This document shows, in pieces, positions 3,046 to 53,834 of a stretch of DNA of 64,000 nt. The translations under genes were made by a program, and so were the position numbers. Under the pieces are notes generated by a model, which saw nothing but the letters and a program-made list of their open reading frames with translations, ran no database searches and was not told where the DNA came from. Source of the DNA: Nocardia sp. (lineage in GTDB: Bacteria; Actinomycetota; Actinomycetes; Mycobacteriales; Mycobacteriaceae); contig JACIXH010000001.1 in the NCBI GenBank assembly GCA_014360565.1, positions 1-64,000 on the forward strand. The letters run 5' to 3'. Each line of letters begins with the position of its first letter. The first letter of the stretch is position 1.

Positions 3046-3096
3046 CGAATTAATTGCCCCTTGCGCCAAGAGAATTCATTGGTGCTTCATGGAGGC

Positions 3097-29067: not shown

Positions 29068-29690
29068 TGGCGGATTTGAATGTAGATCCTGCCCTCTTGA
29101 CGCAAGCCGCGACCGGGATCAACGGGATCATCAGCGAACTCTCCGAGCTCGGCGTCGGCGAGACCGGCGCCGTCGGACGCGGGTTCGCGCAGCTGACGAT
29201 GTCGGCGATGGAAGCAGGCACGGCGAACGTACAAACCAGCTTCGAGACCTTCGCCGAACGCTGGTCATGGGGCGTGCGCGCACTGGTCCAGTCCGGAAAC
29301 GAGATCGCCGAAGTCCTCGACCTGTCGGCGGGCCGCTACTACGAGATGGACGAGCAGATCTCGAACACGTTCAAGCAGATGTTCACCCACCTGGCAGGCA
29401 ACCCGCACCTGAGCAAGGCCGATCTCGAGAAGATGGACTGGGGTCAGGTCTGGGACAACAGCAACTTCAACACCGCCAGAAATCCCGAATACAGTGCGTC
29501 GTCGTTCGGTGACGCATTCTCGCATATGGGTGACAACGTCTCGACATTGGGGCAGGTCGGACAGTACCTGGTCTCCGATGACGTGCCCGACCGCGACAGC
29601 CTCGGCGACATGTTCTTGCCCGATACAGGGGCGGCTGCGAAGGTCGCCGAGATCCAGCAAGCACAACAAGCAGCTCGTGGGGGGAAGTAG
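29067..29690 (+). CDS. WXG100-like (type VII secretion-associated) protein
   Basis: All-helical protein with WSWG turn region and downstream YYEMD (YxxxD) motif; directly precedes WXG-Rhs toxin. Confidence 0.6.
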   Translation: MADLNVDPALLTQAATGINGIISELSELGVGETGAVGRGFAQLTMSAMEAGTANVQTSFETFAERWSWGVRALVQSGNEIAEVLDLSAGRYYEMDEQISNTFKQMFTHLAGNPHLSKADLEKMDWGQVWDNSNFNTARNPEYSASSFGDAFSHMGDNVSTLGQVGQYLVSDDVPDRDSLGDMFLPDTGAAAKVAEIQQAQQAARGGK

Positions 29691-29693
29691 TCC

Positions 29694-32600
29694 GTGGGTA
29701 TCGGGGACTTCGTCAACAGCCTCGGCGACAAGATCGAAGACGGGCTCGAATCAGCCACCGAGAAGGTCGGCCAGGCCTACAACACCGTCCTCGACGCCGA
29801 GTCCAAAGTCGCGAAAGCTGTCGGCGCCGACGGCCTGTCGAACTGGCTCGACGATCTCGGCGACAAGGTCGTCGACGCGACCGGTGGCGCGGTCCCGGAG
29901 AAACAACTCGGCCAAACCACCGATCCGAAGGAACTGATCCGCGGGGACCCCGCCAAGATCTCCGAAGTCGCCGAGCACGTCGCCAAGATCGGGACCGCGA
30001 TCGACCAAACTGGTGACGCATTGCGCAAGATCGATGTCGCGGAGTGGTCCGGTGAGGCCTCCTCGGCCTTCCATGACGAGTACGCGAAACAGCCGAAACT
30101 GTGGTGGGACGGCGCCGACGCGATGGGCAAAGCCAAAACCGCGTTGGACGCCTGGTACCACGAAGTCACCGCCGCCCAGGCTAAAGCCGCCGACGCGATC
30201 GCGAAATGGGAAGCCGCCGACCGTGAAGAGCGCGACCGCAAGAACGCCTGGAACGCCCAAACCGACGAACAACGCAAAGGCAAGAACCTCACCGACACCT
30301 GGACCGACATCCGCAACGAGGCCCGCGCGATCCTAAACGGTGCCCGCACTCAACGAGACAACGCTGCCAACTCGGCGGTCACCGCGATCACCGCGGCCAC
30401 CGAGACCGCGCCGACCGAACCGCCGTTCCTCTCGCGGTGGGGTAGCAACTTCGAGGATCTGGGCGCGGCGATCGAGCACGCGAAGATCAACTTCTCGTCC
30501 GGTCTGTTGACCTCGCTGACCGGTATGGTGCAGTTCGTCCGATCGGTCACCCCGTTCGACATCTACAACATGACTCACCCCGCCGAGTACATGTCGAAGA
30601 TGTCGGACATGGGCACCGGCATGGTGATCGCCGCAGCCGACCCGAAAGCTACTGCTGCGGCGATGCTGTCGACTTTCAAGACCAACCCGTCGGAAGCGTT
30701 GGGCGCGCTCACCGGCGATGTATTGACCACCGTCGCGACCGGTGGCGCTGGTGGCGTCGCGAAAGGTGCTGCCACCACGGTCAACCGTGCCTCCGAGGTT
30801 GTGGACGCGGCGAACACCGGCCGCAACGTCCTTGACAATGCCGCGGGAGCGGCCGGTAGGCACGCGCCCGAGACGCCCAGCGCCCCGACTCAGCCTGCCG
30901 CCCACGTGCCGGATAATCCGTCGACACCAAGCTCGAATCCTGCGGGGAACACCGGTGATTCGCCAGCCACGAACCCGGCAGGCGCCGCATCGGACAGCGC
31001 GGGACCCAATGCGGCTGGGCAGGCAGGTGACCCTCCGTCTACGAATCCGGCTGATACCCCGAATACGAACCCCAACGCTGCGGCTGATGATTCGGTACCA
31101 GCCAACAACGGCGACGGGACGAATCCCGAAACCGCCGCACCCACCAACCCGCGAGACACCGAGCCTGGTTCACCGACGCCGGACACGGGGTCGCCTGAGA
31201 ATGGGTCAGCGTCACCGAACGGCACCGATGAATCGCCGACCGGCAAACCCACTCCTGATTCCGATGGTGGCAGCCCGAACCAGGATTCGCCCACCCCAGC
31301 TCACAACGATTCCAGCCCCGACCAGCACGACAACTCACCGACCCCGGACGGGGACAACACACCAGGCGACCAGGACTCCGGCTCGCCGACCACGAATCCT
31401 GACAACGACGCAAGCCCTGGCGACACCGACGATGTCACCAACCCCGGTAGCCACGACGGGGACGGCAACACCCCCGATCCGAACAACAACCCCGAGCTTC
31501 GCGCCGGCCACGACAACGGTGGCAACGGCCAGGACAGCGCTGGTCAGGCTGGCCAGGACAAGCCGCCCGAGACCGACTCAACAGATGACCAGACCACCAA
31601 AGTCGGTGACCCGGTCAATGCCGCGAACGGCGAGTTCTTGCTCCCGATCACCGATCTCGAGCTGCCCGGCATCCTTCGCCTGGCACTCAAGCGATCGCAT
31701 CACTCGAACTACCGATTCGGGCGGTGGTTCGGCCCATCGTGGTCGGCCACTCTTGATATGCGAGTGGTCGTCGAAGCTGACTGCGTCACAGTCATTTTCG
31801 AAGACGGCATGCTACTGCCCTACCCGCATGCCGAGGTCGGTGTCGGTGTCGAGCCGATCACCGGCGGGCAGCGATGGAAACTGACCCGCACCGACATCGG
31901 CGGCTACCGCCTGTGGGATCCAGAGCGAGAACTGGTGTGGCACTTCGCCCCAGAACCAACCCTTGCAGGTGTGGACACTCTCCTCGGGAACTACGCGATC
32001 TCCGCGATCACCGACCGACACCACAACCGAATCAGATTCCACTACAACAGCAACGGCGACCCGACCGAAGTCACGCACTCCGGCGGCTACCGAGTCGTGC
32101 TCGATTGCGCAGATGCCCGCGTGACCGCAATCTCAGTTGCTGATCAATCCGGTGAGTTCGAAACCCTCACCCGTATACGTGAATTCGGCTACACCCGCGG
32201 GGATCTGACCAGCGTGGTCAACGGCGTCGGCGGCACCACTCGCTTCACCTACGACGATCACCATCGCATGCTGTCGTGGACCGACTCCAACGGCAGCTCG
32301 GTCACCAACACCTTCGACGAATCCGGCCGAGTCATCGCTCAGCGCGGCACCGACGGCGTCATGAACGCCGACTTCGAATACCTCGAACTCGGTGACGGCA
32401 CCGGCCGCCTCACCCGCATCACCGATTCCCGTGGCGGCGTCACCGGCTTCGGATTCGACAACGACCTCCGCTTGCGCGATCTGCTCGCACCCGATGGCGG
32501 CCACCGCCATATCGAGTACAACGCCGCCCGCAAACCCCTCAAAATCATCGAACCCGATGGTGCGATCACACGCTTCGAGTACACCGCCGAGGGTGACGTC

Positions 32601-35231
32601 GCGAGGAAGATACGTGCGGACGGCACCGATATCAGCATCGAATACGCCTACCCGAACCGTCCTTCGACCATCACGAACCCTGACGGTACGACCTCGCACC
32701 GAGAGTGGGACAAAGCAGGCAACCTCGTGGCGGTCACCAACCCTGCCGGCGCCCGCACCCAATACAGCCACAATGCATGCGGCGCCGTCGCCGAAGTGCG
32801 CGACCCTGACGGCGCGATCACTCGCATCGAGACCGATCTCGCCGGACTGCCAGTGGCAATGATCGACCCGTACGGCGCGAGAACCACCATCCGTCGCGAC
32901 CCATTCGGCCGCCCCGCGGAGGTGACCGATCCGCTCGGTGGCATTACGCACTACAAGTGGACCCCAGAAGGTCGCCCTGCCCGTCGCACCGACCCCGACG
33001 GCTTCGCCGAATCCTGGACCTACGACGGCGAAAACAACCTCCTCGCCCACACCAACCGCAACGGCGCCATCACCCGCTACACCTACTGCGGCTTCGACAG
33101 AGTCGCGAGCCGAACCGACCCCGACGGATCCACCACCCGATACCTCTACGACACCGAATCTCGCCTGATCGCCGTCATCAACCCCCTCGGCCAACGCTGG
33201 ACCTACGAATACGACCTGGCCGGACGACTGGTGTCAGAATCCAACTACACCGGCGCTACGACCACCTACACGCGCACCTCCACCGGCAAAATTGGCAGTG
33301 TCACCCCCGCGACCGGCATCACCCGCCACCACCGCTACGACGCGCTCGGGAACCTCACCTCCATCACCGCAGACTCCGGCGAATACCTGGCCTATACCTA
33401 CGACGCGGCTGGGCGCATCCTCACCGCCAGCAACGGCACCGACGAAATCTGCACCCACAAGCTCGAATTCACCTACACCGCCACCGGCGAGATCGCGACT
33501 CAAACGCTCGACGACCAACCCGCCCTGGTCAACGACTACGACCACCGTGGACGACGGATCCGACGCACGACCCCGACACGCACCGTCACCACCTGGCGTC
33601 ACAACGCACTCAGCCAGGTCACAGCGCTCAACGCTGACGGCACCGACATCACCTTCACCCATGACCCGATGGGTCGCCTGACCCAATGGTGCATAGGCGA
33701 GCTCCAGATCGACCGCACTTTCACACCCAGTGGCGACGTCGCGGCACAGGAAGTCACCGGTTTCCCCAGCACCGCCTTCTCCCTCGACTTCGGCGACACC
33801 CCTCTCGCCCGGCCCGCGCCGTTCGCTCTCCGCCGAGACGACTACTCCTACCGCGCCGACGGGTACCTCACCAACCACACCATCACCCGCCCGAACGCCC
33901 CCACCGTCCGCAAAACCTACGCCCTCGATCCGATCGGCCGGGTCAGCACCATCACTCGCGACAGCACCGTCTCGGAGGCATACGAGTACGACCCGCTCAG
34001 CAACATCACCGCCAGCTTCTCCGACGATGCCGACGATGCCGACGATGCCGACGATGCGGGACCTGACCACACGGCACACGCCGCGATGGACGGTCGCGAG
34101 TACCACAACAACCTTCTCGTTCGAGATGGCCGCAATCACTACTATTACGACCCCGCTGGCCGACTCATACGCAAAGTCACCACTCGCATTTCCCGCAAAC
34201 CAGCTGTATGGCACTACCGCTACAATGCTTTCGACCAACTCACCGACGTCTACACACCCGACCAACAATGGTGGCGGTATACCTTCGATCCGCTCGGCCG
34301 CAGAGTCTCCAAACAGCTGACCCTCGCAGGCGAGCAGTCCCCCACGACGACATCGAGATATACCTGGGACGGTACCCACCTCATCGAGGAATCCACCGAG
34401 GACGGCGTCTACGCATGGCAATATCAGCCCGGTAGCTTCACACCACTCCTGCAACGCCGACCAAAAGCCGGTTCCCCCCAATGGAATTCGATGGCGATAC
34501 TGACAGATCTCGTCGGCAGCCCCATCGGGTTGGTGGACCCGAAAACAGGCGCCAGGGATTCCGAAGTCACGGCATCCAACCTGTGGGGCAAAACGGTCTG
34601 GTCGCAACCGGCATCGACACCACTGCGATTCCCCGGGCAGTACTTCGACCCCGAAACCGGCTTCCACTACAACTACCAACGCACATTCGACCCCGCCGTC
34701 GGCCGATACCTGACCTCCGACCCCCTCGGTCTGGCACCCTCGCCCAACTCCTACCTCTACCCCCACAACCCCACCCGCTACATCGATCCACTCGGCCTGC
34801 AGCCCTACGATCCGCGCAATCAACCCGGGACCGCCACCGGCGGTGAGGACCTTCCCAGCGTGGGCCCCGGAGACCAGTGGCTCCGCGGATCGGAAGGCAA
34901 CGCAGGATGGGTACCCGGCCAGGTCGCCGATGCGCTGCGGGGACAAAGTTTCGACAGCTTCTCCGACTTCAGGCAGCAGTTCTGGAGAACAGTGGCCGAC
35001 GACCCAGATTTGATGTCGCAATTCAGCCGCAACAACCAGAACCTGATGGCCAACGGCAATGCACCCTTCGCCGCAGAGGGCCAGCATGTCGGCGGGGCAG
35101 GCAGATACAATCTGCACCACGTCAACCCGATACACAACGGAGGCGGAGTGTACGACCTCGACAACCTGGCAGTGGTGACACCCAGGTTCCACGCCGAAGT
35201 CCTCGATCCAACATTCCACTACAACCGCTGA
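29694..35231 (+). CDS. RHS-repeat polymorphic toxin with WXG-like N-terminus and C-terminal HNH nuclease
   Basis: 'VAEWSGEASSAFHDEY' (WxG), N/P/S/T/D-rich linker, many YDxxGR/YD repeats, core end 'FPGQYFDPETGFHYNYQRTFDPAVGRYLTSDPLGL', tip 'YNLHHVNPIHNGGGVYDLDNLAVVTPRFHAEVL'. Confidence 0.92.
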   Translation: MGIGDFVNSLGDKIEDGLESATEKVGQAYNTVLDAESKVAKAVGADGLSNWLDDLGDKVVDATGGAVPEKQLGQTTDPKELIRGDPAKISEVAEHVAKIGTAIDQTGDALRKIDVAEWSGEASSAFHDEYAKQPKLWWDGADAMGKAKTALDAWYHEVTAAQAKAADAIAKWEAADREERDRKNAWNAQTDEQRKGKNLTDTWTDIRNEARAILNGARTQRDNAANSAVTAITAATETAPTEPPFLSRWGSNFEDLGAAIEHAKINFSSGLLTSLTGMVQFVRSVTPFDIYNMTHPAEYMSKMSDMGTGMVIAAADPKATAAAMLSTFKTNPSEALGALTGDVLTTVATGGAGGVAKGAATTVNRASEVVDAANTGRNVLDNAAGAAGRHAPETPSAPTQPAAHVPDNPSTPSSNPAGNTGDSPATNPAGAASDSAGPNAAGQAGDPPSTNPADTPNTNPNAAADDSVPANNGDGTNPETAAPTNPRDTEPGSPTPDTGSPENGSASPNGTDESPTGKPTPDSDGGSPNQDSPTPAHNDSSPDQHDNSPTPDGDNTPGDQDSGSPTTNPDNDASPGDTDDVTNPGSHDGDGNTPDPNNNPELRAGHDNGGNGQDSAGQAGQDKPPETDSTDDQTTKVGDPVNAANGEFLLPITDLELPGILRLALKRSHHSNYRFGRWFGPSWSATLDMRVVVEADCVTVIFEDGMLLPYPHAEVGVGVEPITGGQRWKLTRTDIGGYRLWDPERELVWHFAPEPTLAGVDTLLGNYAISAITDRHHNRIRFHYNSNGDPTEVTHSGGYRVVLDCADARVTAISVADQSGEFETLTRIREFGYTRGDLTSVVNGVGGTTRFTYDDHHRMLSWTDSNGSSVTNTFDESGRVIAQRGTDGVMNADFEYLELGDGTGRLTRITDSRGGVTGFGFDNDLRLRDLLAPDGGHRHIEYNAARKPLKIIEPDGAITRFEYTAEGDVARKIRADGTDISIEYAYPNRPSTITNPDGTTSHREWDKAGNLVAVTNPAGARTQYSHNACGAVAEVRDPDGAITRIETDLAGLPVAMIDPYGARTTIRRDPFGRPAEVTDPLGGITHYKWTPEGRPARRTDPDGFAESWTYDGENNLLAHTNRNGAITRYTYCGFDRVASRTDPDGSTTRYLYDTESRLIAVINPLGQRWTYEYDLAGRLVSESNYTGATTTYTRTSTGKIGSVTPATGITRHHRYDALGNLTSITADSGEYLAYTYDAAGRILTASNGTDEICTHKLEFTYTATGEIATQTLDDQPALVNDYDHRGRRIRRTTPTRTVTTWRHNALSQVTALNADGTDITFTHDPMGRLTQWCIGELQIDRTFTPSGDVAAQEVTGFPSTAFSLDFGDTPLARPAPFALRRDDYSYRADGYLTNHTITRPNAPTVRKTYALDPIGRVSTITRDSTVSEAYEYDPLSNITASFSDDADDADDADDAGPDHTAHAAMDGREYHNNLLVRDGRNHYYYDPAGRLIRKVTTRISRKPAVWHYRYNAFDQLTDVYTPDQQWWRYTFDPLGRRVSKQLTLAGEQSPTTTSRYTWDGTHLIEESTEDGVYAWQYQPGSFTPLLQRRPKAGSPQWNSMAILTDLVGSPIGLVDPKTGARDSEVTASNLWGKTVWSQPASTPLRFPGQYFDPETGFHYNYQRTFDPAVGRYLTSDPLGLAPSPNSYLYPHNPTRYIDPLGLQPYDPRNQPGTATGGEDLPSVGPGDQWLRGSEGNAGWVPGQVADALRGQSFDSFSDFRQQFWRTVADDPDLMSQFSRNNQNLMANGNAPFAAEGQHVGGAGRYNLHHVNPIHNGGGVYDLDNLAVVTPRFHAEVLDPTFHYNR
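34022..34057 (+). repeat. 9-bp x4 tandem repeat (CGACGATGC) encoding (DDA)n within the Rhs gene
   Basis: cgacgatgc repeated; translation DDADDADDADDA. Confidence 0.85.
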
Positions 35232-41174: not shown

Positions 41175-41382
41175 GGCGCGCGAGGATAGTCGCGGCCTCC
41201 GACACAGATCCGGGTCCCGTCAGCACCTGACGCGTCCTACTCGGTTCAAGCCGGGTTCGGCAGATTCTCCCGCTCTGAGTGTTGAGGTGACTGCGCAACA
41301 GGGCATCCTCTGTCGACCAACGGCCCTCCGACAAGGCATACAATGCGCTGTCACACTGTCGACCCGAGGATGGATTCCCGGC

Positions 41383-42645
41383 ATGTTGGATAAGCGATTT
41401 GTCCGCGAGAACCCCGACGCGGTGAAGGAAGCCGCCAGTTCGAAGGGAGTCGCTGTCGATGTCGACGCACTCCTCTCTCTCGATGAGTCCGGGCGTTCCC
41501 TCCAGCATGATCTAGACAACGCCCAGGCCCGGCGCAACTCGATCTCCAAAGAGTTCGGCAAGGCCGACGCTGCAGGCAAAGACCAGCTCAGGGCGGAGAG
41601 CACCAAACTCGGCGACGAGATCTCGAAGCTCAAGGCCGACCTAGAGGTGAATCTGGCCGATCAGCGCGAGATCCTCCTGCGTCTGCCACAGATCCCTTGG
41701 TCGGGTGCGCCTATCGGTGCCGACGAATCAGCCAACACGGTCGTCCGGACTTGGGGCGCGCCACCTGAATTCGATTTCGAACCGCGTGATCATGTTGATC
41801 TGGCCGAGTCCCGGGGCTGGGTAGAGTTCGCGCGGGCGCGCAAGGTCGCTGGTGAGCGCGCCTATGCGCTGCGTGGTGATCTGATGCTGCTCGAGCGCGC
41901 GGTGCACTCCTACGCCCTGGATCTGCTCGTGCGGCAGGACTTCGTCCCGATCAGTGTTCCGGCTCTTGTTCGTGAGCAGGCACTTGTCGGGACGGGGATG
42001 TTCCCAGGCCATCGCGCCGAAACCTACGAGCTGCCAGCCGATGACACGTTCCTGGCTGGGACAGCGGAGGTGGCCTTGGTGGGCCTTCATTCCGACGAGA
42101 TCCTCGAGTTGCGTGACCTTCCGTTGAAGTATGCGGGGATGTCGCCGTGCTTCCGCCGCGAAGCGGGTTCCGCGGGCCGCGACGTGCGAGGCCTGCTGCG
42201 GGTGCACCAGTTCGAGAAGGTCGAGCAGTTCGTGATCTGCGAGGCTGACCCCGAGGAATCGGCGCGCTGGCACGCAGCGCTGCTGGCGAGTGCCGAGACT
42301 GTTCTCCAGGAACTGGGGCTTGCTTATGAGGTCGTCGAGTGCGCGACCGGAGACATGGGTTTGGGCAAGGTCAGGATGAACGACATCAACACCTGGTTGC
42401 CGAGCCTTGGCCAATACCGCGAAACGCACTCGTGCTCGACTCTGGGGACCTGGCAGGGTCGCCGCGCGAATCTGCGCTACCGCGACGCCGAGGGCAAGGT
42501 GCAGTTCGCCGCCACGCTCAACAACACCGCCGTGGCCACGCCGCGACTGCTGGCGGCACTGTTGGAGAACTTCCAGACCGCCGACGGCAAGATTGCGGTG
42601 CCGACGGTCCTTCAGCCCTACATGGGTGGCAGGGAACTGATCTGA
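41383..42645 (+). CDS. serS: Seryl-tRNA synthetase (probably accessory paralog)
   Basis: MLDKRFVRENPDAVKEA coiled-coil N-term; class II motif 2 SPCFRREAGSAGRDVRGLLRVHQFEKVE; motif 3 region LNNTAVATPRLLAALLENFQ. Confidence 0.93.
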   Translation: MLDKRFVRENPDAVKEAASSKGVAVDVDALLSLDESGRSLQHDLDNAQARRNSISKEFGKADAAGKDQLRAESTKLGDEISKLKADLEVNLADQREILLRLPQIPWSGAPIGADESANTVVRTWGAPPEFDFEPRDHVDLAESRGWVEFARARKVAGERAYALRGDLMLLERAVHSYALDLLVRQDFVPISVPALVREQALVGTGMFPGHRAETYELPADDTFLAGTAEVALVGLHSDEILELRDLPLKYAGMSPCFRREAGSAGRDVRGLLRVHQFEKVEQFVICEADPEESARWHAALLASAETVLQELGLAYEVVECATGDMGLGKVRMNDINTWLPSLGQYRETHSCSTLGTWQGRRANLRYRDAEGKVQFAATLNNTAVATPRLLAALLENFQTADGKIAVPTVLQPYMGGRELI

Positions 42646-43784
42646 AAAATCTGCTCTAGCACCACGCCCACTTGCCCGGTTGCGAGGACGAGTTCGGCGA
42701 TCGGAACGAACTCATTCGGTGAGTGGGCGTGGCGCAGGCTTCCGGGTCCGAATACGACAGCCGGAGTACCTGCGGGGCCGAAGAATCGGGCGTCTGAACC
42801 ACCCAGAAACTGCTCGGTGGCGACTTGCTGGCCGGTCTCCCGCTGTGCGTGCGCAAACGCGCGTGCCAGGTCGGTGTCGGTACCGATGAAATGGGAGTGA
42901 CAGCCTCCTCCTTGGTAGGCAGCGACAGCAATGCGTACTTTGTCGCTGCTCAAGCTGGCTGCCGCCGTGCGGTAGAGCTCGGCGATGTGATCGCGATCTT
43001 GGCTGGGCAGCACCCTGATGTCGGCACGCAGGACGCATTCGCCAGCGACAGTGCCGGGGTGACCTGGGATCTGCATATAGCCGACGTTGACGCGGGGATG
43101 GCCCGGAAAGTCGGGGTCGGTCGGCAGTTTCGCCACTAGTTCGTCGAGGGCGTCGATGTAGCTGGTCGCGGCGCGGAATGCGTCCGCGCCGTGTAGGGGG
43201 GTGCCGGCATGGGTCGTCCGCCCGGTGATGGTGACTTCGGCCCACGCGAGCCCGAGTTGCGCCAGCGAGGGTCTGCATCCGGTCGGCTCGCCGACGATTG
43301 CAGCGTCGGCGGTGAGTAGGCCGTGCTCGGCCAGTAGCTGTGCACCCCAGACGCTCCCGTCTTCTTCGTCAGCGACGCACTGCACGATCAATGTGCCGGA
43401 CCAGTCAGAGCGCGCGGCGAGAGTAGTTGCCGCGCAAAGGAACACCGCCATCGCGCCTTTGGTGTCGCAGGCGCCGACTCCGTAGAGGCGGTCTCCATCG
43501 ATGGCGGCAGCGAAGGGATCTGTATTCCACAGGTTGGTGCCGCCGACTGCGGTGGCGGGTTTGGTGTCGGCGTGTGCTTGCAGGATGACGCGCGGGCCTG
43601 GCCCGCGGCAGAGTGTGGCGATCAGGTTGGCCCGCAGTGGATCTTGTCCGATCCACTCGATGTCGAATCCGTGTGCGGTGAGCAGTTCTGCGACGTAGGC
43701 ACCGAGGATGGCTTCGTTGCCGGGCGGGTTTTGGGTGTCGATGCCGATCAGCGCACTGCACACGGCGGTGACGTCGAGGTTCAC
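42618..43784 (-). CDS. M20 family metallopeptidase (ArgE/DapE-like)
   Basis: VILQAHADTKPA, GVGACDTKGAMAVFL, QCVADEEDGS, IVGEPTG motifs. Confidence 0.9.
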   Translation of the reverse strand: MNLDVTAVCSALIGIDTQNPPGNEAILGAYVAELLTAHGFDIEWIGQDPLRANLIATLCRGPGPRVILQAHADTKPATAVGGTNLWNTDPFAAAIDGDRLYGVGACDTKGAMAVFLCAATTLAARSDWSGTLIVQCVADEEDGSVWGAQLLAEHGLLTADAAIVGEPTGCRPSLAQLGLAWAEVTITGRTTHAGTPLHGADAFRAATSYIDALDELVAKLPTDPDFPGHPRVNVGYMQIPGHPGTVAGECVLRADIRVLPSQDRDHIAELYRTAAASLSSDKVRIAVAAYQGGGCHSHFIGTDTDLARAFAHAQRETGQQVATEQFLGGSDARFFGPAGTPAVVFGPGSLRHAHSPNEFVPIAELVLATGQVGVVLEQIFQISSLPPM

Positions 43785-44065
43785 GTGTTCTCCTGGTCGA
43801 CGTGGGCATGGCGGTGTTCACGGCGCAGATCGGCGACGGGAACACCGGTCGGGCACACGCTGTGGCAGTCGCCGCATTCGAGGCATCGCGCCAGGTACGT
43901 GGCTGCAACAGGGTCGGGTGTTGATGTTGGGTTGGCCATGAGGTTTATACGGCCGCGGGGGGAATCGCCCTCGTCGTGGGTTTCGAGCCAGGTGGGGCAG
44001 CTCGGAAGGCAGAGTCCGCAGTTGGTGCACTGGGCGATCGTTTTCCACCAGGTGGCGTCGGTCAT
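43781..44065 (-). CDS. Short (Fe-S)-binding protein, GlcF N-terminal-like, 2x[4Fe-4S]
   Basis: CTNCGLCLPSCP and CLECGDCHSVCP; ATGA overlap with the upstream gene. Confidence 0.8.
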   Translation of the reverse strand: MTDATWWKTIAQCTNCGLCLPSCPTWLETHDEGDSPRGRINLMANPTSTPDPVAATYLARCLECGDCHSVCPTGVPVADLRREHRHAHVDQENT

Positions 44066-46290
44066 GGTCTTCCACAGGGGGTGTGGAGCGCTTCGGAGAG
44101 GGCGCGGCCCATGGGTGTTGTTGTGGCGGTCGACGGCGCGGTCGTCCACAGACGGCGTTGCCCTATCGACAGGTACTGCGGAGTTGTCGAGTCGGTGCGC
44201 AGTGCGTGGTCTAGGTCGGCCCACCGGTGGATGCGTCGGCCGGTGATGTCGGCGCCCGCGAAGGCGAACATGGGTGGGTCTGCCCAGATCGGTTCGGTTT
44301 TCGCCTGCATGGTCGGGGCGAGCTCGGACATTGTTGCCACCGCGCGTGCGACGGTGTGCCCGCGGACTTCCAATCGCCCGACGAGTTGGACCACGCCATC
44401 GGTGCCGACGAGGATCCCCAGGTGTGCGAACGGCAGCGCTGCAGCGCGTAGCCGGGTCAATACCGCTAACGCGTCGGTGACCGACCTCGTTGGCACGACG
44501 ACGCTGCAGGCATCGGTGACAGCGGGTAAGAGTCGTAACCGCGCGCCGGTTAACCTCGCTCTGCCTCGGTTGCCGAAAGCCAATGCACGCAAGGGATATC
44601 CGGCAACGTCCTTGGTGACCGCGCCGCCGAAGAGTTCGCCGTCGAGTTCGGCGGCGATGATGAGGTCGCGGGCTCGGAAGGGGTGCGGTTCGCGGAGTCC
44701 TGGCCGCGCGGTGTCGATCGCGGCCAGGATCGGCTCGTCTGGACGGCCGCCGAGAGGTTCGTAGGTCAGCTCGTAAGGGCTGTTCGCCAGCAGTTTCTCC
44801 GCGTCGGCGAAAGTGGTGTGTGGCCCGATATCGAGGTAGGCGTCGATGCGGTGGACCTGTCCGGGGTGCAGCGGGAGCACATCGGTTACCGTCTGTGGGT
44901 GGTGGTCGTCGGGTGGGCGTGGTGGGAGTAGCTTTCCGGGGTTGGACAGCCCGCGCGGGTCGAACACCGCCTTGATCGTGTGCATCGCCTCGAGGGCTGC
45001 GGGGGTGTAGAACTCGGTCATCAGGTCCCGTTTTTCCGACCCGATGCCGTGTTCGCCCGACAGAGCCCCGCCCAAGGCTGCGCAGTCGCGCAGGATCCGG
45101 GTAGAGAACGCGGCGAGCACTTCGTCCATTCCGGGTCCGGGCGTGAAAAAGGGTGTGGGATGGACGTTTCCGTCTCCGGCGTGGAATGTGTTGAGGACCG
45201 GCAGCCCGAAGTGGTCGGCGGCCTCGGTGATCGCGTTCATGAGTTCGGGTAGTCGTGAGCGGGGTGCGGTGGCGTCGAACAGGTAGTAGCGAGGATGTCC
45301 ACTGTCTGCGACCATCCGTCGAACTTTGCCTTTGACGAGTTCGGCTCGGCGGCCAAGGTATTCGGCCGCTCGGAATTGGCTGTAGTCGCCGCCGGTGGCT
45401 TCGATGCAGGTCTGCAGGATTTGTAGTCCGGTGTCGACCTCCTCGGGTTGGCCTTGAAGGTGCACGAACAGCAAGGACGGGTCCGTGTGATCGGGGCGGC
45501 CGGGGATGTAGGCGCCGGTGAGCATGTCCATCGCCGAGGGCAGCATCCCGGCGTCGAATACGTTCATCACCGCGGCGACTGCGGCCTGCGGGTCGTCGAA
45601 GCGTGCGATCACCGCGTGCTGGCTCGGCGAAGCAGGCAGCAGTCGCAGTGTGACTGCTGCGACCACACCGAGGGTGGCTTCGGAGCCGACGACCAGCGCG
45701 ACGAGATCGAGGTTGCCGTCATAGACGTCGTGCTCGTCGAGGATCGCGACGCTGCCGTCGGGACCGATCAGTTCGACGCTGATGACGTGGTTGGCTGTCG
45801 ATCCACCTCCGAGTGCGTGTGGGCCACCAGCGTTTTCGGCGATGTTGCCTCCGATCGTGCACACCTGATGCGAGGACGGATCGGGCACGTACCGCCAGCC
45901 CGCCGCTGCGGCGCGTTCGTGGATGCGGGCCAGGGTGACGCCTGGTTCGCACCGAATCCACCCAACGTCGAAGTCCTCGTCGAGGATGCGGTTGAGGTCG
46001 CGTGTCAAGATCACCATCCCGCCGTTCGCGGGCAACGCCCCGCCGCTGTAACCGGTACCCGCTCCTCGTGGCACGAACGCCACGCCGTGCTGGTACGCGG
46101 CGGCGACGAGGGCGGCGAGCTGATCGCGATTCGACGGGGCGGCAACGAGATCGGCGGATCCGACCTCCATGGATGCGTCGTATCCGTGGAGCAGGCGGTG
46201 TGTGGCGTCGGTTGCTACCCGGTCGGGGCCCACGATGGACACGGCGTGCTCGCGCAGTGCTGCAAGGGCGCTGCGATCGGCCCAGCTCAT
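44062..46290 (-). CDS. FAD-linked oxidase, GlcD-GlcE-type fusion
   Basis: PRGAGTGYSGGALP, VCTIGGNIAENAGGPHALGGGST, SGEHGIGSEKRDLM, FDPRGLSNPGKLLP (GlcD), followed by a GlcE-like region (AELDGELFGGAVTKDVAGYPLRALAFG). Start set at MSWADRS (46290). Confidence 0.85.
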   Translation of the reverse strand: MSWADRSALAALREHAVSIVGPDRVATDATHRLLHGYDASMEVGSADLVAAPSNRDQLAALVAAAYQHGVAFVPRGAGTGYSGGALPANGGMVILTRDLNRILDEDFDVGWIRCEPGVTLARIHERAAAAGWRYVPDPSSHQVCTIGGNIAENAGGPHALGGGSTANHVISVELIGPDGSVAILDEHDVYDGNLDLVALVVGSEATLGVVAAVTLRLLPASPSQHAVIARFDDPQAAVAAVMNVFDAGMLPSAMDMLTGAYIPGRPDHTDPSLLFVHLQGQPEEVDTGLQILQTCIEATGGDYSQFRAAEYLGRRAELVKGKVRRMVADSGHPRYYLFDATAPRSRLPELMNAITEAADHFGLPVLNTFHAGDGNVHPTPFFTPGPGMDEVLAAFSTRILRDCAALGGALSGEHGIGSEKRDLMTEFYTPAALEAMHTIKAVFDPRGLSNPGKLLPPRPPDDHHPQTVTDVLPLHPGQVHRIDAYLDIGPHTTFADAEKLLANSPYELTYEPLGGRPDEPILAAIDTARPGLREPHPFRARDLIIAAELDGELFGGAVTKDVAGYPLRALAFGNRGRARLTGARLRLLPAVTDACSVVVPTRSVTDALAVLTRLRAAALPFAHLGILVGTDGVVQLVGRLEVRGHTVARAVATMSELAPTMQAKTEPIWADPPMFAFAGADITGRRIHRWADLDHALRTDSTTPQYLSIGQRRLWTTAPSTATTTPMGRALSEALHTPCGRP

Positions 46291-47348
46291 GGCATGGCCT
46301 TGGTGAGGGTTTGTGGTTGGCCGCTGGACAGTGCGGTGATGGCGGCGTGGCAGGTTTCCATCACATCGAGGACCTGCGACAGCGGTACTCGGTCGCTGTC
46401 GCGTCCGTCGGCGACGCAGTCGGTGATGTGTTGCAGTTCGCTGACGAGGGCACCCTGGCGAGCACCGCCGTACCGGGGCCACAGCCACATTTCAGGCGCG
46501 CTGGCCTGCGCGGTGGTCCATGCGTGGATCACCGGTTCGCTGCGCAATGTCCATGTGCCCTCGGCTGCTTGGATCGTTGCGTCGAAGGTGAATCCGAACG
46601 GGCATGTGGACGCGAGGTGCCACGAGTTCTGGATGACCGCCCGCAGTGGGCCCCATTCCAAGACGAGGTCGATGCAGTCGGGATGCTCGTGGCCCAGCAG
46701 GTGGGATCCGTAGGCACTGACTCGCTCTGGTGCGCGCCCGACAAGCCAGACGGCGATGTCGATGTCGTGCACGGCCGCGTTGAGCACGGGGTGTGTGCGC
46801 CCGTAGACCTGGTGCGCCACGCTCTGGAAGGTCCGCGCGAACGACAGATGTCGCAGCGTCGACCCGGCGACCATCTCTGACAACGCTATGTAGCGGGGGT
46901 CGAAACGCAGCACTTGTGCCACGTAGAGGTGTCGGTCCCGGGCTCGGGCCAATTCGACAAGCTCGTGTGCGGCGGCGGGGTCGAGGGCGATCGGCTTCTC
47001 GACCACAACGTCGGCACCAGCTTCGAGTGCGGTGCGGATACACCACTCGTGCTCGGACTCGGTGGTTACCACGTCGACGAGGTCCACCCCTGCCGCGAGC
47101 ATGTCCTGCAGTTTCTCGTAGCGGGCGACGCCAGCTGGGATCGGGCGGCGACCGCCACTTCCGGCGTCGCTGTGAAACGCTTCCTGCGGCGCATCACCGA
47201 CATCGGCCATCGCGGCAGGATCACGATCGCACACCGCGACCACGGTGGCGCCGCGTACCGACGACCACGCGTCGAGGTGGGTGCGGCCGAACCATCCCAT
47301 CCCGACCACGCCGACACGCAACGGTCGCGGGGCGTTGTTGTTGATCAT
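46287..47348 (-). CDS. Gfo/Idh/MocA family oxidoreductase
   Basis: VGVVGMGWFGRTHLDAW Rossmann motif; VVVEKPIALD; HDIDIAVWLVG. Confidence 0.88.
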   Translation of the reverse strand: MINNNAPRPLRVGVVGMGWFGRTHLDAWSSVRGATVVAVCDRDPAAMADVGDAPQEAFHSDAGSGGRRPIPAGVARYEKLQDMLAAGVDLVDVVTTESEHEWCIRTALEAGADVVVEKPIALDPAAAHELVELARARDRHLYVAQVLRFDPRYIALSEMVAGSTLRHLSFARTFQSVAHQVYGRTHPVLNAAVHDIDIAVWLVGRAPERVSAYGSHLLGHEHPDCIDLVLEWGPLRAVIQNSWHLASTCPFGFTFDATIQAAEGTWTLRSEPVIHAWTTAQASAPEMWLWPRYGGARQGALVSELQHITDCVADGRDSDRVPLSQVLDVMETCHAAITALSSGQPQTLTKAMP

Positions 47349-47375
47349 GGTGCCTCCGGAGGGTGCTCGGTAAGG

Positions 47376-48314
47376 TCAGACGAAGGCATCGACGCGGGTG
47401 AAGTCGTTGTCGGGCAGCAGTTCACGCGCAATCGGCAGATATTGTTCCCATGCCCATTGCCAGACTTGCTGGGCTTGCAACCATGCCTGCTCGGCCTCGC
47501 CGACGCTCAGGAGGTCCTGGTTGCGCAAATCTTTGAGGTCGGTGACGGTGTCGGCGACTGCGACGGCGTCCGGGCCGAAACGGTCGTTCAAGAACTCGCG
47601 GGCCGCGACTGCCCAATCGGCGAGCAGTTCCATGTGCATGCCTGCGCTGAGTTCGCTGTCGGTCAGCTTCAGGGCCAAAGCGTCCTTGATGGCTTCTTCG
47701 GCGTAGCGCGCCGACTCCTCGACGAGTATCTGCGGCCGTTCGTACCAGGCCAGCGCCCAGGGCAGGTGATCTAGGATGTTGCGGTAGTGCGAGAGCGCTC
47801 GGTGCACGGTGCGCGCCCATTCACCGGTCCGGCGAGGATGCGGTGCGAGGAGAAGTACATCGGCTGGGTCGCCGTTGAGCATGCGGAATGCCCTGCACCA
47901 GCCCGGTCCGATGGTCGGGGGCAGCCGATAGCGGTTGGTGTCATGGTCGCCCTCGAGGACTTTGGTGGTCAAGGAGACCAGCCGCTGCGCAGCCTCGGTG
48001 GTGGGGCGATGAGACACCGTGTACGGGTGGCAGTCCACCAGCAACTCCCACCCTTGTTCGGCCAAGGCCTCGCGTTGGGTCTGCCAGCTTCGCGCCAGTT
48101 CCAGCCGCAACGCATTGCCACGATCGCCGACGGCGATGAAGTAGAGGTTCAGGCTGGGGCGTTGGCGGTTCCAGTGTCCTGCGACGAAGGACCCGGTGAC
48201 GAAACTGGCGCGCACCAGGTCTGGGTGGGTGCGGGCGAGTTGTTCTGCTGTGGTGCACAAGTCGGTGAGGACTTGCTCGGATTCCTGCTCGAGCTGGGTG
48301 TTGTCGAGATTCAT
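47376..48314 (-). CDS. Uncharacterised protein, weakly nucleotidyltransferase-like
   Basis: ASFVTGSFVAGHWNRQRPSLNLYFI resembles a degenerate GS..G..D.DL motif; 312 aa in operon. Confidence 0.55.
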   Translation of the reverse strand: MNLDNTQLEQESEQVLTDLCTTAEQLARTHPDLVRASFVTGSFVAGHWNRQRPSLNLYFIAVGDRGNALRLELARSWQTQREALAEQGWELLVDCHPYTVSHRPTTEAAQRLVSLTTKVLEGDHDTNRYRLPPTIGPGWCRAFRMLNGDPADVLLLAPHPRRTGEWARTVHRALSHYRNILDHLPWALAWYERPQILVEESARYAEEAIKDALALKLTDSELSAGMHMELLADWAVAAREFLNDRFGPDAVAVADTVTDLKDLRNQDLLSVGEAEQAWLQAQQVWQWAWEQYLPIARELLPDNDFTRVDAFV

Positions 48315-48342
48315 GGTGTCCCCTTCGCTGAAATGGTGGTGT

Positions 48343-49245
48343 CTAGCCGTGCTGTGCGCGGGTGAGGTAGTAGGAGGGCGCTCGTGTGCGGCGGCGGGTG
48401 GTGATGTCGTCGAATTCGGGTAAGTCGGCCCATCCGGTCGCCGGGCTCGCTCCGATCAGCTCCGCCAATTGCGGTGCCATCGTCTTGATCTCGTCGGCGG
48501 TAAACACCCGCGCGTAATCCTCCTGCGGGCGCATGTACATCCGTGCGAACAGCGTCGAGATCGTCAGGCGCACACCGGGTTCGGTGCGTGGGTAGGCGCC
48601 GTGCCAGGTGTTGCCGTGGAAGATGATCGCCGCGCCTGCCGGAGCGAGTACGGGGATGGCGTCCCGGGTTCCCTGCCCCTCGCGGGGTCGGTGGCAGAAC
48701 CTGTGACTGCCCGGCACGATCGACAAACACCCGTTGGCTTCGGTGTAGTCCGTGAGGCAGTAGTTGATGTTGGCGATCTGGGCATAGGGCGGAAGTGGAT
48801 CGGGGACGTAGGCGGTGTCGGAGTGGATTCCCAGCGCGCACAGGCCGGGACCTTTCACGTATCCGGTGACGCTGCTGAGCTGGCGCTGTGCGCCGAGTAG
48901 GTAGGTGATCAGCAGCAGGGTGCGCGTGCCAAGCACCAGTTCCTGGAACGGTGCGCCTCCGCGCGACAACAGCAATGGAACCTCTTGTGTGCGGTCACGG
49001 TGGCAACCGCCGGACTCGGTGTCGACCGGCGCGTCGTCGGCTGCGGCGCAGGCGAGGAGTTGTTCGGTCAGCTCGGAGCGCAGGTCTGGTTCGAGTGCGT
49101 CGGGAATGACGGTGTAGCCCAAAGCTTCCAGTTCCAGCGCGTGGGAGAGTAAGCCGTGATCGGTGAGCTGTTGGTGCATCTCTGCCACGCCGGCGGTGAT
49201 GAACGGATAGTGCGCTCCCCCTGGTGATGACGTGGCATCAGACAC
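48343..49245 (-). CDS. Phytanoyl-CoA dioxygenase (PhyH) family Fe(II)/2OG oxygenase
   Basis: GIHSDTAYVPDPLPPYAQIANINYCLTDYTEANGCLSIVPGSH ... WHGAYPRTEPGVRLTI. GTG start at 49245 preceded by GGAGG. Confidence 0.85.
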   Translation of the reverse strand: MSDATSSPGGAHYPFITAGVAEMHQQLTDHGLLSHALELEALGYTVIPDALEPDLRSELTEQLLACAAADDAPVDTESGGCHRDRTQEVPLLLSRGGAPFQELVLGTRTLLLITYLLGAQRQLSSVTGYVKGPGLCALGIHSDTAYVPDPLPPYAQIANINYCLTDYTEANGCLSIVPGSHRFCHRPREGQGTRDAIPVLAPAGAAIIFHGNTWHGAYPRTEPGVRLTISTLFARMYMRPQEDYARVFTADEIKTMAPQLAELIGASPATGWADLPEFDDITTRRRTRAPSYYLTRAQHG

Positions 49246-50108
49246 TTTGAGCCTCCGGTGTCGAGGAGTTCGGCCGGTCCGGTATCCATGCGCCATCGCC
49301 CCACGCGTTGCGGTTGGTCGCTGCGGCGCGCAGCGCCAGGTCTTGCGCGCGCATCAGCGCCCCGACGGCGCTGGCGCCACCACAGCGCCGCCGGTGCCAA
49401 GTCAGGGCGTTGTCCAGCGCCGCAGCTTCGACTGGGCGAAGCTGTCGCAGCCGATTCCATCCCGCGCGTGCGTAGCTTCTGGCCCCGCCACTGCGCGTAG
49501 CTCGTTGGCGATGCCACCTGCACCTGTGCGTCGGCGACGTAGTCGATGCGAGCCCCGTGATCGTGGGCAGACAGGCCCACTGAGACGTCGTCGAGCACCG
49601 GTATCAGCGGGTTCTCGGCAGGGAATATGTTGCGGCGCAGACCGTACATTGCTCCTGGCAGCGCCCACCGCAGCTCGGGGTGCGCGCTGCGGCAGGCGTG
49701 CCACGTGTCGAAAGTGATCTCGGACCACCGATGCAGTAACGCCGGATCGCCCGGCCTCGGCGGGGACAGAATCAGGTGGCCTGCTGCGACGTCTGCGCCG
49801 TCGTCCAGGGCCGAAACCAGATATCCGAACGCAGACGGGGCAACTAGGACGTCGGCGTCGAGGAATACCAGATAGTCGCTGTGGGACGCCCTCACGCCAC
49901 GGCGCAGGGCAGTGTATTTGCCCGCAACCGCAACAGTCGCCCATCGGATTCTGCCCGGCGGCAGCGCGAGTCCGGTGAAGTCAGATCCCTCGGGGACGAC
50001 AACGACCAATTCTGCGTTGACGCATTCTGCGGCGGCGATGGTGTGCGGCAAAGTGATCGGCAAGGTCGATTCCTCACCTCGCGCGGGCACGACGACGGTC
50101 ACGGTCAT
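49238..50108 (-). pseudogene. Family 2 glycosyltransferase with apparent frameshift (around 49461-49475)
   Basis: MTVTVVVPARGEESTLPITL...DYLVFLDADVLV...VLDDVSVGL in one frame; shifting +1 restores RAGWNRLRQLRPVEAAALDNALTWHRR...STPEAQSV* ending at the PhyH start. Confidence 0.75.
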
Positions 50109-50275
50109 GATGCACTCCGTTCGGGAAAGCGAACCGGCAGCACCCGCTGCCCCAATGTGTGTTTGCTCCAGCAGATCCGCGAAACTGCTGAACAAATTAT
50201 GTTGTCGGACAACCTTTTTGGGACCCGCGGCGTACCCTGCTGAGAATTCTGAATTGTTGACGAAAGGTGATCGGC

Positions 50276-51214
50276 ATGGAAGTTGCGCTCCTCATCGACA
50301 GCGAAACGGGCACCACAGCCAAGGACTGGCTTCGCGTGGCCGCCCATATCGACGGCACCGCCGTGACGGCTCTGCTGCGTTCGGACCACCTCACAGGCCC
50401 TGCCCCGTCTGGCCAGGACTGCCTGGACGCATGGACTGCCTGTACTGCGGCCGCAGCCACCACACACACCGTCGGGTTGGGAACACTGGTGTCGCCGATC
50501 ACCTTCCGGCATCCTGCGATCCTGGCAAAGACCGTCGCCAGCACGAGCGCGTTCGCTGGCGATCGCCGCTTGGACGTCGGAATCGGCATCGGGTGGAACA
50601 CATACGAGCACCGCAGCGTGGGCCTCGCGCTCCTCGACACGACCACTCGCTACCGGATGATGGTCGAGTACATCGCCGTGCTGCGAGGCCTCTGGAGTGG
50701 GTTGCCGTTCTCCTACGACGGCGAATTCTTCACCGCCGATGACGCGCAACTTCACCCCGTCCCAGCCCGTCCGCCGCGGATCATCGTCGGCAAGCGAGGC
50801 CGTCAACGCTCCCTCGAACTGGCGGTACGCACGGCAGACGAATACAACTTCGTGTTCCAGCCACCTGCGGCGTGCGCGAGAGTCCACCAGCGCTTGACCG
50901 AGATCGCCGACAAATGCGATCAAGCACCACCACGGCTGTCGGTGATGACCGACTGCATCATCGGAGCAGACGCGCGCCACATCAACGCCCAGCTTGCAGA
51001 CGCCGCCACCCGATACCCGATGCTGCGCGGCGCAACCCACTCCACGCTGCCCGCGCCGTACCTGGCGACTACACCGGAAGCGCTCGTCGACACCATCGAG
51101 GCATACGCGAATGCCGGCGTGGACCGGATGATCCTCAAGCACCCCAATCCCGCAGACCTGAGCAGCATCGACCTGCTCATCAATTCCGTGCTGCCCTACG
51201 TGAAGAAAGGCTGA
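50276..51214 (+). CDS. LLM-class (luciferase-like) flavin-dependent oxidoreductase
   Basis: VGLGTLVSPITFRHPAILAKTVAS, RLDVGIGIGWN, YRMMVEYIAVLRGLW. Confidence 0.88.
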   Translation: MEVALLIDSETGTTAKDWLRVAAHIDGTAVTALLRSDHLTGPAPSGQDCLDAWTACTAAAATTHTVGLGTLVSPITFRHPAILAKTVASTSAFAGDRRLDVGIGIGWNTYEHRSVGLALLDTTTRYRMMVEYIAVLRGLWSGLPFSYDGEFFTADDAQLHPVPARPPRIIVGKRGRQRSLELAVRTADEYNFVFQPPAACARVHQRLTEIADKCDQAPPRLSVMTDCIIGADARHINAQLADAATRYPMLRGATHSTLPAPYLATTPEALVDTIEAYANAGVDRMILKHPNPADLSSIDLLINSVLPYVKKG

Positions 51215-51218
51215 GACC

Positions 51219-52142
51219 ATGGCACATGTTCTCGTTACCGGCGCACTGGGCACCCTCGGTCGCGCCACGACCGCACAGCTGATCCGAGACGGACACAAGG
51301 TCACCTCCCTCGACAACCGGCCCGCCCCAGACGCGTGGGCGCCACACCATGTCGTCGCCGACATCAGAGACCCCCAGCAATATCGGACCACGCTCGCCGA
51401 CTGCGAAGCGCTGGTCCACCTGGCCAGCCTGCACGGGCGAGACCATATGGCGCGCTTCGGATTCAACGACTTCTGGTCGGTCAACGTCGACGGCACGCTG
51501 GCGCTGTACCGGGCCCTGAAAGAGTCCGCCGTGTCGCAGGTCGTACTGGCCAGCTCGATGGCGGTGTACGGACCGATCCCCTCAGCCCCACGCTCTGCAT
51601 GGGAGATTCGCGACGAATCCATGTCAACGACCTCCTACGATGCCTACTCGCTGACCAAGCTGACCAGCGAATCCATCGCCGAATACACCCTGGCCGACGC
51701 CGGAATCCTCACCACAGTGCTGAGACTTGGGCATTTCACCCCTGCCGGGCTGTTGCACCACGGCTTTCGCCTGCTGTTCGGTGGCCTCGACATCCGCGAC
51801 GCTGCGGCAGCAGTGGCAGCCGCGCTCTCGCGGCCACCGGTCGGGACCAACCGCCATCTCAACATCCACGCCGCGTCGCCGCTGCCAAACCGCATCGACA
51901 CGCTTCGCGACGCACCGACAGCGGTACTCGAAGAGTTGTTCCCGCAGTTCATGTCGACGCTCGCCGAGCGCGGCGAAGACCCGGTGGCACACCTGTGGGG
52001 CCGATCGGCGTGGCCAATCGTGCACGCTGCGAACGAGATTGGATATGCCCCCGCCTATGACTTCGACAGATTCGCCAGCGACTTCCTGCGGGGGGACCTC
52101 TCCGGCTACCGATGGCTGGAGTTGCCTCGATGGGGAATCTGA
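51219..52142 (+). CDS. NAD-dependent epimerase/dehydratase (extended SDR)
   Basis: VLVTGALGTLGRATTAQL; SSMAVYG; YDAYSLTK. Confidence 0.9.
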   Translation: MAHVLVTGALGTLGRATTAQLIRDGHKVTSLDNRPAPDAWAPHHVVADIRDPQQYRTTLADCEALVHLASLHGRDHMARFGFNDFWSVNVDGTLALYRALKESAVSQVVLASSMAVYGPIPSAPRSAWEIRDESMSTTSYDAYSLTKLTSESIAEYTLADAGILTTVLRLGHFTPAGLLHHGFRLLFGGLDIRDAAAAVAAALSRPPVGTNRHLNIHAASPLPNRIDTLRDAPTAVLEELFPQFMSTLAERGEDPVAHLWGRSAWPIVHAANEIGYAPAYDFDRFASDFLRGDLSGYRWLELPRWGI

Positions 52143-52409
52143 TCGCAAGTTCGCATAGGTCCTCGTCGCCGACAATGCCTGCATCCGCGCGACCTCCCAT
52201 GTAGCTGGACGCGGGCCCAATTACTAAGGGCCACATCGTTGTTGGTTTGCCCAGGGTCACCGATCCGGGCACACCGAAGTAAGACGCGTCACAGGTTGGC
52301 TCGGCTAGGGCAGGACCGACTAGCCGAGCTAGTCGGTTCTCGCGGTCTTCACCGCGATCGTTAGCGAACCCAGGCTCGCCGGTCCTATCGTCGATCTGAC
52401 CGTGCCTCG

Positions 52410-53834
52410 ATGTGCGACCAGGAGTCGATGATGAACGTCGATGACAACCCGAAAATGCCGATAGCAGCGGAGGTCTGGGAGCGCCCGGATATGCGCACGG
52501 CCTTGGCCAACCACGACTTCGCGACGGTCTACTTCCTGCTGCACAGACAACTCAAGGTCTCGCAGCGTGATATCAGCCGACGGACCGGCCAGAGTGGCTC
52601 CGAGATATACGAGATCATGAAGGAAGGCCGCCAGGTCAACTCCTACAAACTCCTCATCCGCATCGCAGACGGACTCGGAATCCCTCGCGGCTACGTAGGA
52701 CTGGCCAGTGACCCGCTCCCGAAACCGAGCACACCGGGCAGCAGTGACGACGAGCACCACGACATTCAAGCCTTCCTCGACTACGCCGCCCAGCTCACAG
52801 TCGCACCCAACGACGGCCTGCCAGCGCAGGCTGCGGCGCCCCCGGAGCTCATCACCGCGCCGGCGCCCCGCCACGTCGGCGGAAGTGATGTCGCTCAACT
52901 GGTCGTCATGACAGCGGCGATGCGTCGTCTCGACTATCAGTTCGGTGGCGGTGCGTATCGCGACGCTGTCGCTGCCCAAGCACAGTGGGCTGAACAGTTG
53001 GTGCACGCACAAAGCGACGACAACACCGAACGGGCGCTACTCACCGCAGTCGCCGACCTACACAACCTTGCAGGGTGGGTTTCTTTCGACGTCGGCATGC
53101 ACCGTGCCGCGCGCAGCCACTTCCGGCGAGCGTTGGCCGTAGCTCACGGGGCGGACGACCCCACGCTCTCGGCGAACATCCTCTACCGCGCCGGACGATT
53201 GCACCTGCACCGCGGAACTCAACGCGTTGACCGGGGCCCCACTGAACGAAATGGACCGGACTACTTTCGTGTGGCCCTGAGGCTGTTCCAGCTCGGACAA
53301 GTACAGGCCCAAGACGCTGGTTGCGCACTCACCAGCGCGGTGCTCTGTGCCAATGCTGGATGGGCCTATGCGCTATTGGGGGAACGCCAACCCATGTTGC
53401 GGGCACTCGGACGGGCTGAAGACGAATTTGCCCGCGCAGACCCCGGGCGGGCGCCAGGTTGGGTCCGATTCTTCGGCGAGGCAGACCTCAGCGCATCTCA
53501 AGGCGTAGCGCTCACCGCACAGCCGACACCCACACCTGACGACCTCCGAATCGGAATCGCGCGCCTCGGTGACGCGATCGGCCGACGCGGAGCAGACTCC
53601 CAACGCTCTCGCTGCTTTGAACTAACAGCGCTCGCCGTTGCGCACCTGCAGGATGGCCCCAACGAGATCGCTATCCACACCGCCCGGATTGCGGTCGAGA
53701 CTGCGCAAATGGTCAGGTCCTCACGCATCATCGACCGGCTCACACCCATTCTGCGTTACGCCCACAAACACCCGAAGAATTCAGACCTTCAGCAGGTCGC
53801 CAACGACATCCGCTTCATGAGGCAAACGACATGA
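52410..53834 (+). CDS. XRE-family regulator with TPR-like C-terminal region
   Basis: VSQRDISRRTGQSGSEIYEIMKEGRQVNSYKLLIRIADGLGIPRGYVGLA HTH; helical-repeat C-term. Confidence 0.85.
   Translation: MCDQESMMNVDDNPKMPIAAEVWERPDMRTALANHDFATVYFLLHRQLKVSQRDISRRTGQSGSEIYEIMKEGRQVNSYKLLIRIADGLGIPRGYVGLASDPLPKPSTPGSSDDEHHDIQAFLDYAAQLTVAPNDGLPAQAAAPPELITAPAPRHVGGSDVAQLVVMTAAMRRLDYQFGGGAYRDAVAAQAQWAEQLVHAQSDDNTERALLTAVADLHNLAGWVSFDVGMHRAARSHFRRALAVAHGADDPTLSANILYRAGRLHLHRGTQRVDRGPTERNGPDYFRVALRLFQLGQVQAQDAGCALTSAVLCANAGWAYALLGERQPMLRALGRAEDEFARADPGRAPGWVRFFGEADLSASQGVALTAQPTPTPDDLRIGIARLGDAIGRRGADSQRSRCFELTALAVAHLQDGPNEIAIHTARIAVETAQMVRSSRIIDRLTPILRYAHKHPKNSDLQQVANDIRFMRQTT

Follow-up and report, generated by a model that had tools for sequence, protein, structure and literature searches.

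Gene content of the locus

The window, the whole 64,000-nucleotide stretch of Nocardia DNA that was analysed, encodes on its forward strand a seryl-tRNA synthetase (SerRS) of 420 residues with both domains complete. The gene is convergent with, and not part of, a leftward run encoding in order a family 2 glycosyltransferase (GT2), a PhyH-type oxygenase, a 312-residue nucleotidyltransferase (NTase)-like protein, a Gfo/Idh oxidoreductase, a GlcDE-like FAD dehydrogenase, an Fe-S protein and an M20 hydrolase; it overlaps the 3' end of the M20 gene by 28 bases. The features of the locus are as follows:

41383-42645 (+): extra SerRS of the Thermus/Frankia type, 420 residues (TIGR00414, Pfam, trees)
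42618-43784 (-): M20 metallo-hydrolase, ArgE/DapE family (PF01546/PF07687; TIGR01910 just below cut-off)
43781-44065 (-): short 4Fe-4S dicluster protein, similar to the N-terminal portion of GlcF (likely start 44065; listed ORF 43781-44224)
44062-46290 (-): FAD-linked 2-hydroxy-acid dehydrogenase, GlcD-like (PF01565/PF02913; likely start 46290; listed ORF 44062-46488)
46287-47348 (-): Gfo/Idh/MocA oxidoreductase (PF01408)
47376-48314 (-): 312-residue protein without a family; N terminus NTase-like, its catalytic motif degenerate (judged only by eye)
48343-49179 (-): PhyH-type Fe(II)/2-oxoglutarate oxygenase (PF05721; likely start 49179; listed ORF to 49296)
49068-50108 (-): GT2 (PF13641/PF00535; likely start 50108)
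50267-51214 (+): luciferase-like (F420-type, LLM) oxidoreductase, divergent from the GT2 operon (PF00296; TIGR03560 below cut-off)
51219-52142 (+): NAD-dependent epimerase/dehydratase, SDR (PF01370)
52410-53834 (+): helix-turn-helix (HTH) protein with weak TPR matches, a possible cluster regulator
53831-54745 (+): APH-type phosphotransferase (PF01636), overlapping the HTH gene

The GlcD-like dehydrogenase scores 305 bits against TIGR00387, which is below the cut-off; on inspection by eye, its long C-terminal extension resembles GlcE. The C-terminal part of GT2 overlaps PhyH out of frame. For the 312-residue protein, 194 further genomes from the order contained no relative, a search for plasmid relatives was equally negative, and an AlphaFold model made without an alignment was uninformative (pLDDT 41). 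None of the island genes is recognisable as specifying a nucleoside or adenylate mimic.

The DNA from about 41205 to 52900 (about 11.7 kb) matches none of 59 other Nocardia genomes except the complete chromosome G038, which is of the same strain. The left edge of this variable segment lies just upstream of the SerRS gene; further left, a DUF4238 gene and an AAA/NUDIX pair are common to other Nocardia and collinear in three of them. DUF4238 and NUDIX2/AAA2 were rejected as cluster members, since they also occur in Nocardia without a window-type SerRS. Foreign base composition was likewise rejected, the GC content of the island (65%) being the same as that of its flanks. The HTH and APH genes (52410-54745) count as uncertain members of the island. 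A reading made from the sequence alone had placed the synthetase outside any housekeeping context, at the edge of a biosynthetic-looking locus, and the strain-specific segment with its metabolic genes bears this out.

Elsewhere the window holds a TrwC-type relaxase/helicase of 1979 residues (3061-9000), suggestive of a conjugative or mobilisable element, and on the reverse strand a complete six-gene BREX type 2 (Pgl) locus (10740-28260; BrxHI, BrxD, PglZ, BrxC/PglY, PglX and PglW). A type VII secretion system (T7SS) polymorphic toxin (29067-35231), preceded by an EspC-like partner, combines a T7SS signal domain, RHS repeats and a colicin/pyocin-type DNase C terminus. An Mrr-like nuclease is also present.

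A second, complete SerRS beside the native enzyme

The window SerRS matches the NCBIfam family TIGR00414 (serS) over residues 1-414 with 429 bits, compared with a cut-off of 302, and yields the Pfam matches Seryl_tRNA_N and tRNA-synt_2b. Its tRNA-binding N-terminal arm is present (PF02403, residues 1-105), and T225, E227, R256, E258, F275, E279, E345, S348, N378, T380 and R386 (Thermus numbering) are identical. By sequence, the protein is a full-length, active-looking enzyme with intact catalytic residues. An RNA leader or T-box was looked for, and the window gave no Rfam match; a consensus scan found no sigma-70-like promoter upstream of the gene.

The genome contains two serS genes, the window copy and one on another contig (G000:C108:3321-4562) that is the orthologue of the serS present throughout Nocardia; the two enzymes are 41% identical. 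The chromosome G038 carries the same pair and, across those 53 kb of the window that were compared, is 99.99-100% identical, which excludes an assembly artefact as the source of the locus or of the second copy. The view that this is an accessory SerRS with a separate housekeeping serS is therefore upheld: the search for the latter located it both at C108 and in G038, and the window enzyme is not the only, housekeeping SerRS of its genome. Enzymes of the window type are rare. Among 100 genomes of the genus they occur in this strain (seen twice) and in N. amamiensis; they were found in 3 of 299 genomes in the order sample and in 1 of 398 in the phylum sample.

Origin of the extra SerRS

Motif 3 of the window SerRS reads LNNTAVATPR, as had been noted from the sequence, where it was set against LNGSGLAVGR as the common bacterial form. 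That comparison is not apt: the housekeeping motif is LNGTLATTR in Nocardia and LNGTLCAVPR in Streptomyces, while the SerRS of Thermus thermophilus, the sole housekeeping enzyme of a member of a distant phylum, has LNNTALATPR. Nor does the motif mark an accessory enzyme, LNNTAVATPR being normal for a Thermus/Frankia-type lineage whose members are usually the sole SerRS. The window SerRS falls inside the Thermus-type clade with 99-100% support in three trees, and its best match among solved structures is the T. thermophilus enzyme (PDB 1ser, 51% identical).

The nearest relatives, 65-72% identical, come from Frankiaceae, metagenome-assembled genomes (MAGs) of Streptosporangiaceae and a few other actinobacteria. 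The housekeeping SerRSs of Frankiaceae and related actinobacteria share with the window enzyme its clade, motif 3 and active site; in Frankiaceae, however, this type is mostly the only SerRS, whereas in the window it is an extra copy adjoining a metabolic island. Of 10 Frankiaceae genomes tested, 9, including the complete Frankia sp. QA3, have no other SerRS, and the same holds for several actinobacterial MAGs, Streptosporangiaceae among them, which indicates that enzymes of this type can sustain translation. Grouping with housekeeping enzymes had been named as an outcome that would speak against accessory status. Literally this grouping is observed, but the relatives belong to other genera and not to Nocardia, so the accessory status stands. 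Because its closest kin serve most of the tested Frankiaceae as their only SerRS, the window enzyme is a foreign housekeeping-type SerRS, which this Nocardia acquired horizontally and has kept beside its own.

A common acquisition of the window and N. amamiensis SerRSs was rejected (approximately unbiased (AU) test, p=0.005; p=0.034 for a wider group), and the two were thus acquired independently. Several other genomes deserve mention. Parafrankia colletiae has a second, unrelated SerRS besides its Frankia-type enzyme. In Nocardioides sp. 1609 (L062) the Frankia-type SerRS is the only serS and adjoins a leuS-like gene, an apparent housekeeping replacement. In Protofrankia coriariae (L064) and in one further genome (G072:C1:1404468-1405705), the reading frame of the only SerRS found is split in two pieces, probably by sequencing error.

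Linkage of the SerRS to biosynthetic-type genes

Searches with the window PhyH recovered no relative in either of two samples, 298 other genomes from the order (at E<1e-40) and 397 others from the phylum sample (at E<1e-35); the two overlap slightly and together cover about 695 other actinobacterial genomes. A contig of an Actinophytocola MAG (L036), by contrast, carries a PhyH 60% identical to that of the window together with a piece of GT2, abutting the same type of SerRS. There, GT2 residues 135-244 are fused directly to PhyH residues 74-316, and the remainder is absent. The adjoining SerRS carries the substitution R386H (Thermus numbering) and is alone in the clade in having lost the invariant arginine of motif 3; the MAG also has its own housekeeping SerRS. 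The locus reads as a decayed relative of the window locus in which the spare SerRS decayed along with the biosynthetic genes, as if it had become dispensable after the cluster broke, although this case is one MAG at a contig end. That a PhyH-GT2 remnant adjoins this SerRS type in a different family, when PhyH was otherwise absent from the genomes sampled, indicates a linkage beyond chance, seen at one independent locus only.

Looser counterparts were found around other extra SerRSs. In N. amamiensis (L039) the extra SerRS gene is convergent with genes for TauD, an epimerase, a methyltransferase, a beta-lactamase-fold protein and an NRPS condensation domain, and stands beside an extra AspRS (7709-9610) that is 42-44% identical to the Nocardia housekeeping AspRS. 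In a further Nocardia genome (G019, L200), an extra SerRS that is unrelated is surrounded by two Gfo/Idh proteins, an MR/MLE enzyme, an M20 hydrolase, an aminotransferase and an ATP-grasp enzyme containing an L-amino-acid ligase domain; adjoining it is a frame-broken remnant (699-1123) of the N. amamiensis-type AspRS (71-77%). In a genome that is probably of the genus Streptomyces (G970, L198 1877-11117), a deep-branching third kind of extra SerRS is accompanied by two Gfo/Idh proteins, PhyH, AroE, an NTase-like protein, a radical SAM enzyme and a TIM-barrel isomerase. These three loci have families in common with the window locus but are not close homologues of it; some of their extra SerRSs are of unrelated descent, and the Gfo/Idh, PhyH and M20 families are all common.

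The recurrent linkage supports the conclusion that the window SerRS belongs functionally to the adjoining small-molecule island, which comprises the leftward run and probably the divergent LLM/SDR pair. Two explanations dispense with such a bond. The SerRS could be resistance cargo, directed against the SerRS inhibitors of other organisms and independent of its metabolic neighbours, in a mobile, defence-rich region; the relaxase, BREX type 2 locus, polymorphic toxin and Mrr-like nuclease of the window fit this, as do the separate transcription unit of the SerRS, the edge of the variable segment just upstream of it, and the analogy of plasmid-borne, mupirocin-insensitive IleRS. Against it stand the PhyH-GT2 pair that adjoins the same SerRS type in another family and the biosynthetic-looking surroundings of other extra SerRSs, and we regard it as unlikely. 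Still harder to maintain is a neutral or transitional transfer, which would leave a spare housekeeping SerRS of no special role beside the island by chance. The window SerRS shows no sequence specialisation compared with its lineage, and the Frankia-type enzyme can replace a housekeeping gene, as in Nocardioides sp. 1609; yet its rarity in the order and phylum samples, and its biosynthetic-type neighbours in this strain, N. amamiensis and the Actinophytocola MAG, each of which retains a native copy, make this reading improbable.

Seryl-tRNA supply and the comparison with VlmL

The sequence-only reading had offered two roles for the enzyme, provision of Ser-tRNA for biosynthesis, as by VlmL of the valanimycin pathway, or self-resistance as in albomycin producers. 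VlmL and the VlmL-type SerRSs of azoxy clusters are likewise extra enzymes adjoining natural-product loci, but their motif 3 is NGSALPVGR, as opposed to NNTAVATPR, and the VlmA, VlmH and VlmB partners are missing at the window: phmmer searches with vlm-like protein queries detected none of these genes, whether in the window or in the 16 kb that follow it. In the phylogeny with VlmL-type SerRSs that had been proposed, the window enzyme occupies a separate clade, and a single clade uniting it with two SerRSs from vlm-like clusters was rejected (AU p=0.0002). Membership in the VlmL group is thus dismissed by both the tree and the absent partners, and the different clade together with the lack of a VlmA-like transferase renders a valanimycin-like role in seryl-tRNA delivery unlikely.

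Supply of seryl-tRNA to the island's biosynthesis by some other route also has little probability in our judgement. A biosynthetic role is equally compatible with the linkage and the co-decay (the L036 remnant with R386H), AbmK reportedly serves in both capacities (PMC9032320), and the 312-residue protein and GT2 are candidate users of seryl-tRNA. However, besides the separate clade of the VlmL-type enzymes and the want of any VlmA-like (DUF2156/PF09924), VlmH- or VlmB-like gene in the window, Pfam revealed no tRNA-dependent transferase, FemX, GNAT or class II aminoacyl-tRNA synthetase (aaRS)-like ligase among the island genes. Moreover, housekeeping aminoacyl-tRNA can suffice for such pathways, as in the azodyrecin cluster, which has no extra aaRS (PMC9379638).

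A candidate self-resistance enzyme

Second aaRSs that confer self-resistance have been reviewed, namely IleRS2 for mupirocin, TrpRS for indolmycin and ThrRS for borrelidin (PMC9437257, PMC9032320). Like the window SerRS beside what is possibly a producer cluster, these are distant second copies of the target; their inhibitors are known, whereas the window locus is seen from its genes alone. The closest parallel is AbmK (SerRS2) of the albomycin cluster in Streptomyces sp. ATCC 700974, likewise a strongly divergent second SerRS beside biosynthetic genes in a strain with a separate housekeeping serS. AbmK is reported to make E. coli immune to albomycin, with a presumed second role in providing the albomycin pathway with seryl-adenylate (PMC9032320). 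The partners of the albomycin type (a radical SAM enzyme, a PLP transaldolase and a class II aaRS-like ligase) differ from the window genes, none of them being found by Pfam in the island.

We give roughly even chances to the proposal that the window SerRS is an inhibitor-insensitive spare that protects the strain from the island's own product. Such a product, for instance a serine or seryl-adenylate mimic, would block the Nocardia housekeeping SerRS, and the foreign enzyme, with its different active-site surround (NNTAVATPR versus NGTLATTR), would escape the block and keep tRNA-Ser charged while the compound is made. The active site itself is of the ordinary Thermus type and bears no sequence sign of insensitivity; resistance through an active-site substitution was rejected, as the window SerRS shows none relative to its own lineage. 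Between resistance and supply, the choice leans to resistance. The albomycin-like route is accordingly the better of the two that had been put forward, though unproven.

Extra SerRSs in biosynthetic loci are an already known kind, but the literature searched held no description of a Frankia/Thermus-type extra SerRS with the partners seen here, and albomycin is the only natural SerRS inhibitor family discussed in the reviews covered. An intact SerRS of foreign lineage that is linked to a rare metabolic island is a concrete pointer to another SerRS inhibitor. The island is small and closed in a complete genome, and the prediction is that its product hits the native but not the window SerRS. More tentatively, small-molecule aaRS inhibitors of an unrecognised class might be the products both of the island and of the looser counterparts, in which other extra SerRSs accompany Gfo/Idh and either PhyH/TauD or M20 enzymes and, in some cases, an extra AspRS. 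Producers would then protect themselves with a whole housekeeping-type SerRS imported from another lineage; to this possibility we attach less than even weight. The recurrence of an extra SerRS, accompanied in two Nocardia by an extra or broken AspRS, beside similar genes offers a search handle for such clusters.

The survey also brought up other extra SerRSs in Streptomyces. A common one (L165-L184), with motif 3 NGSGLP[IV]GR and sister to the VlmL type, lies in a conserved operon, for example at L179 2324-9563, with APH and a second APH-like protein; the operon further encodes archaeal-type S-adenosylmethionine synthetase-like, histidine phosphatase-like and glycosyltransferase-like proteins, functions that were assigned by eye. 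On the Streptomyces plasmids NZ_CP108163.1 and NZ_CP108444.1 (L205, L206), VlmA/H/B/R-like azoxy genes occur with a VlmL-type SerRS and adjoin an NRPS with an annotated class I tRNA-ligase family protein.
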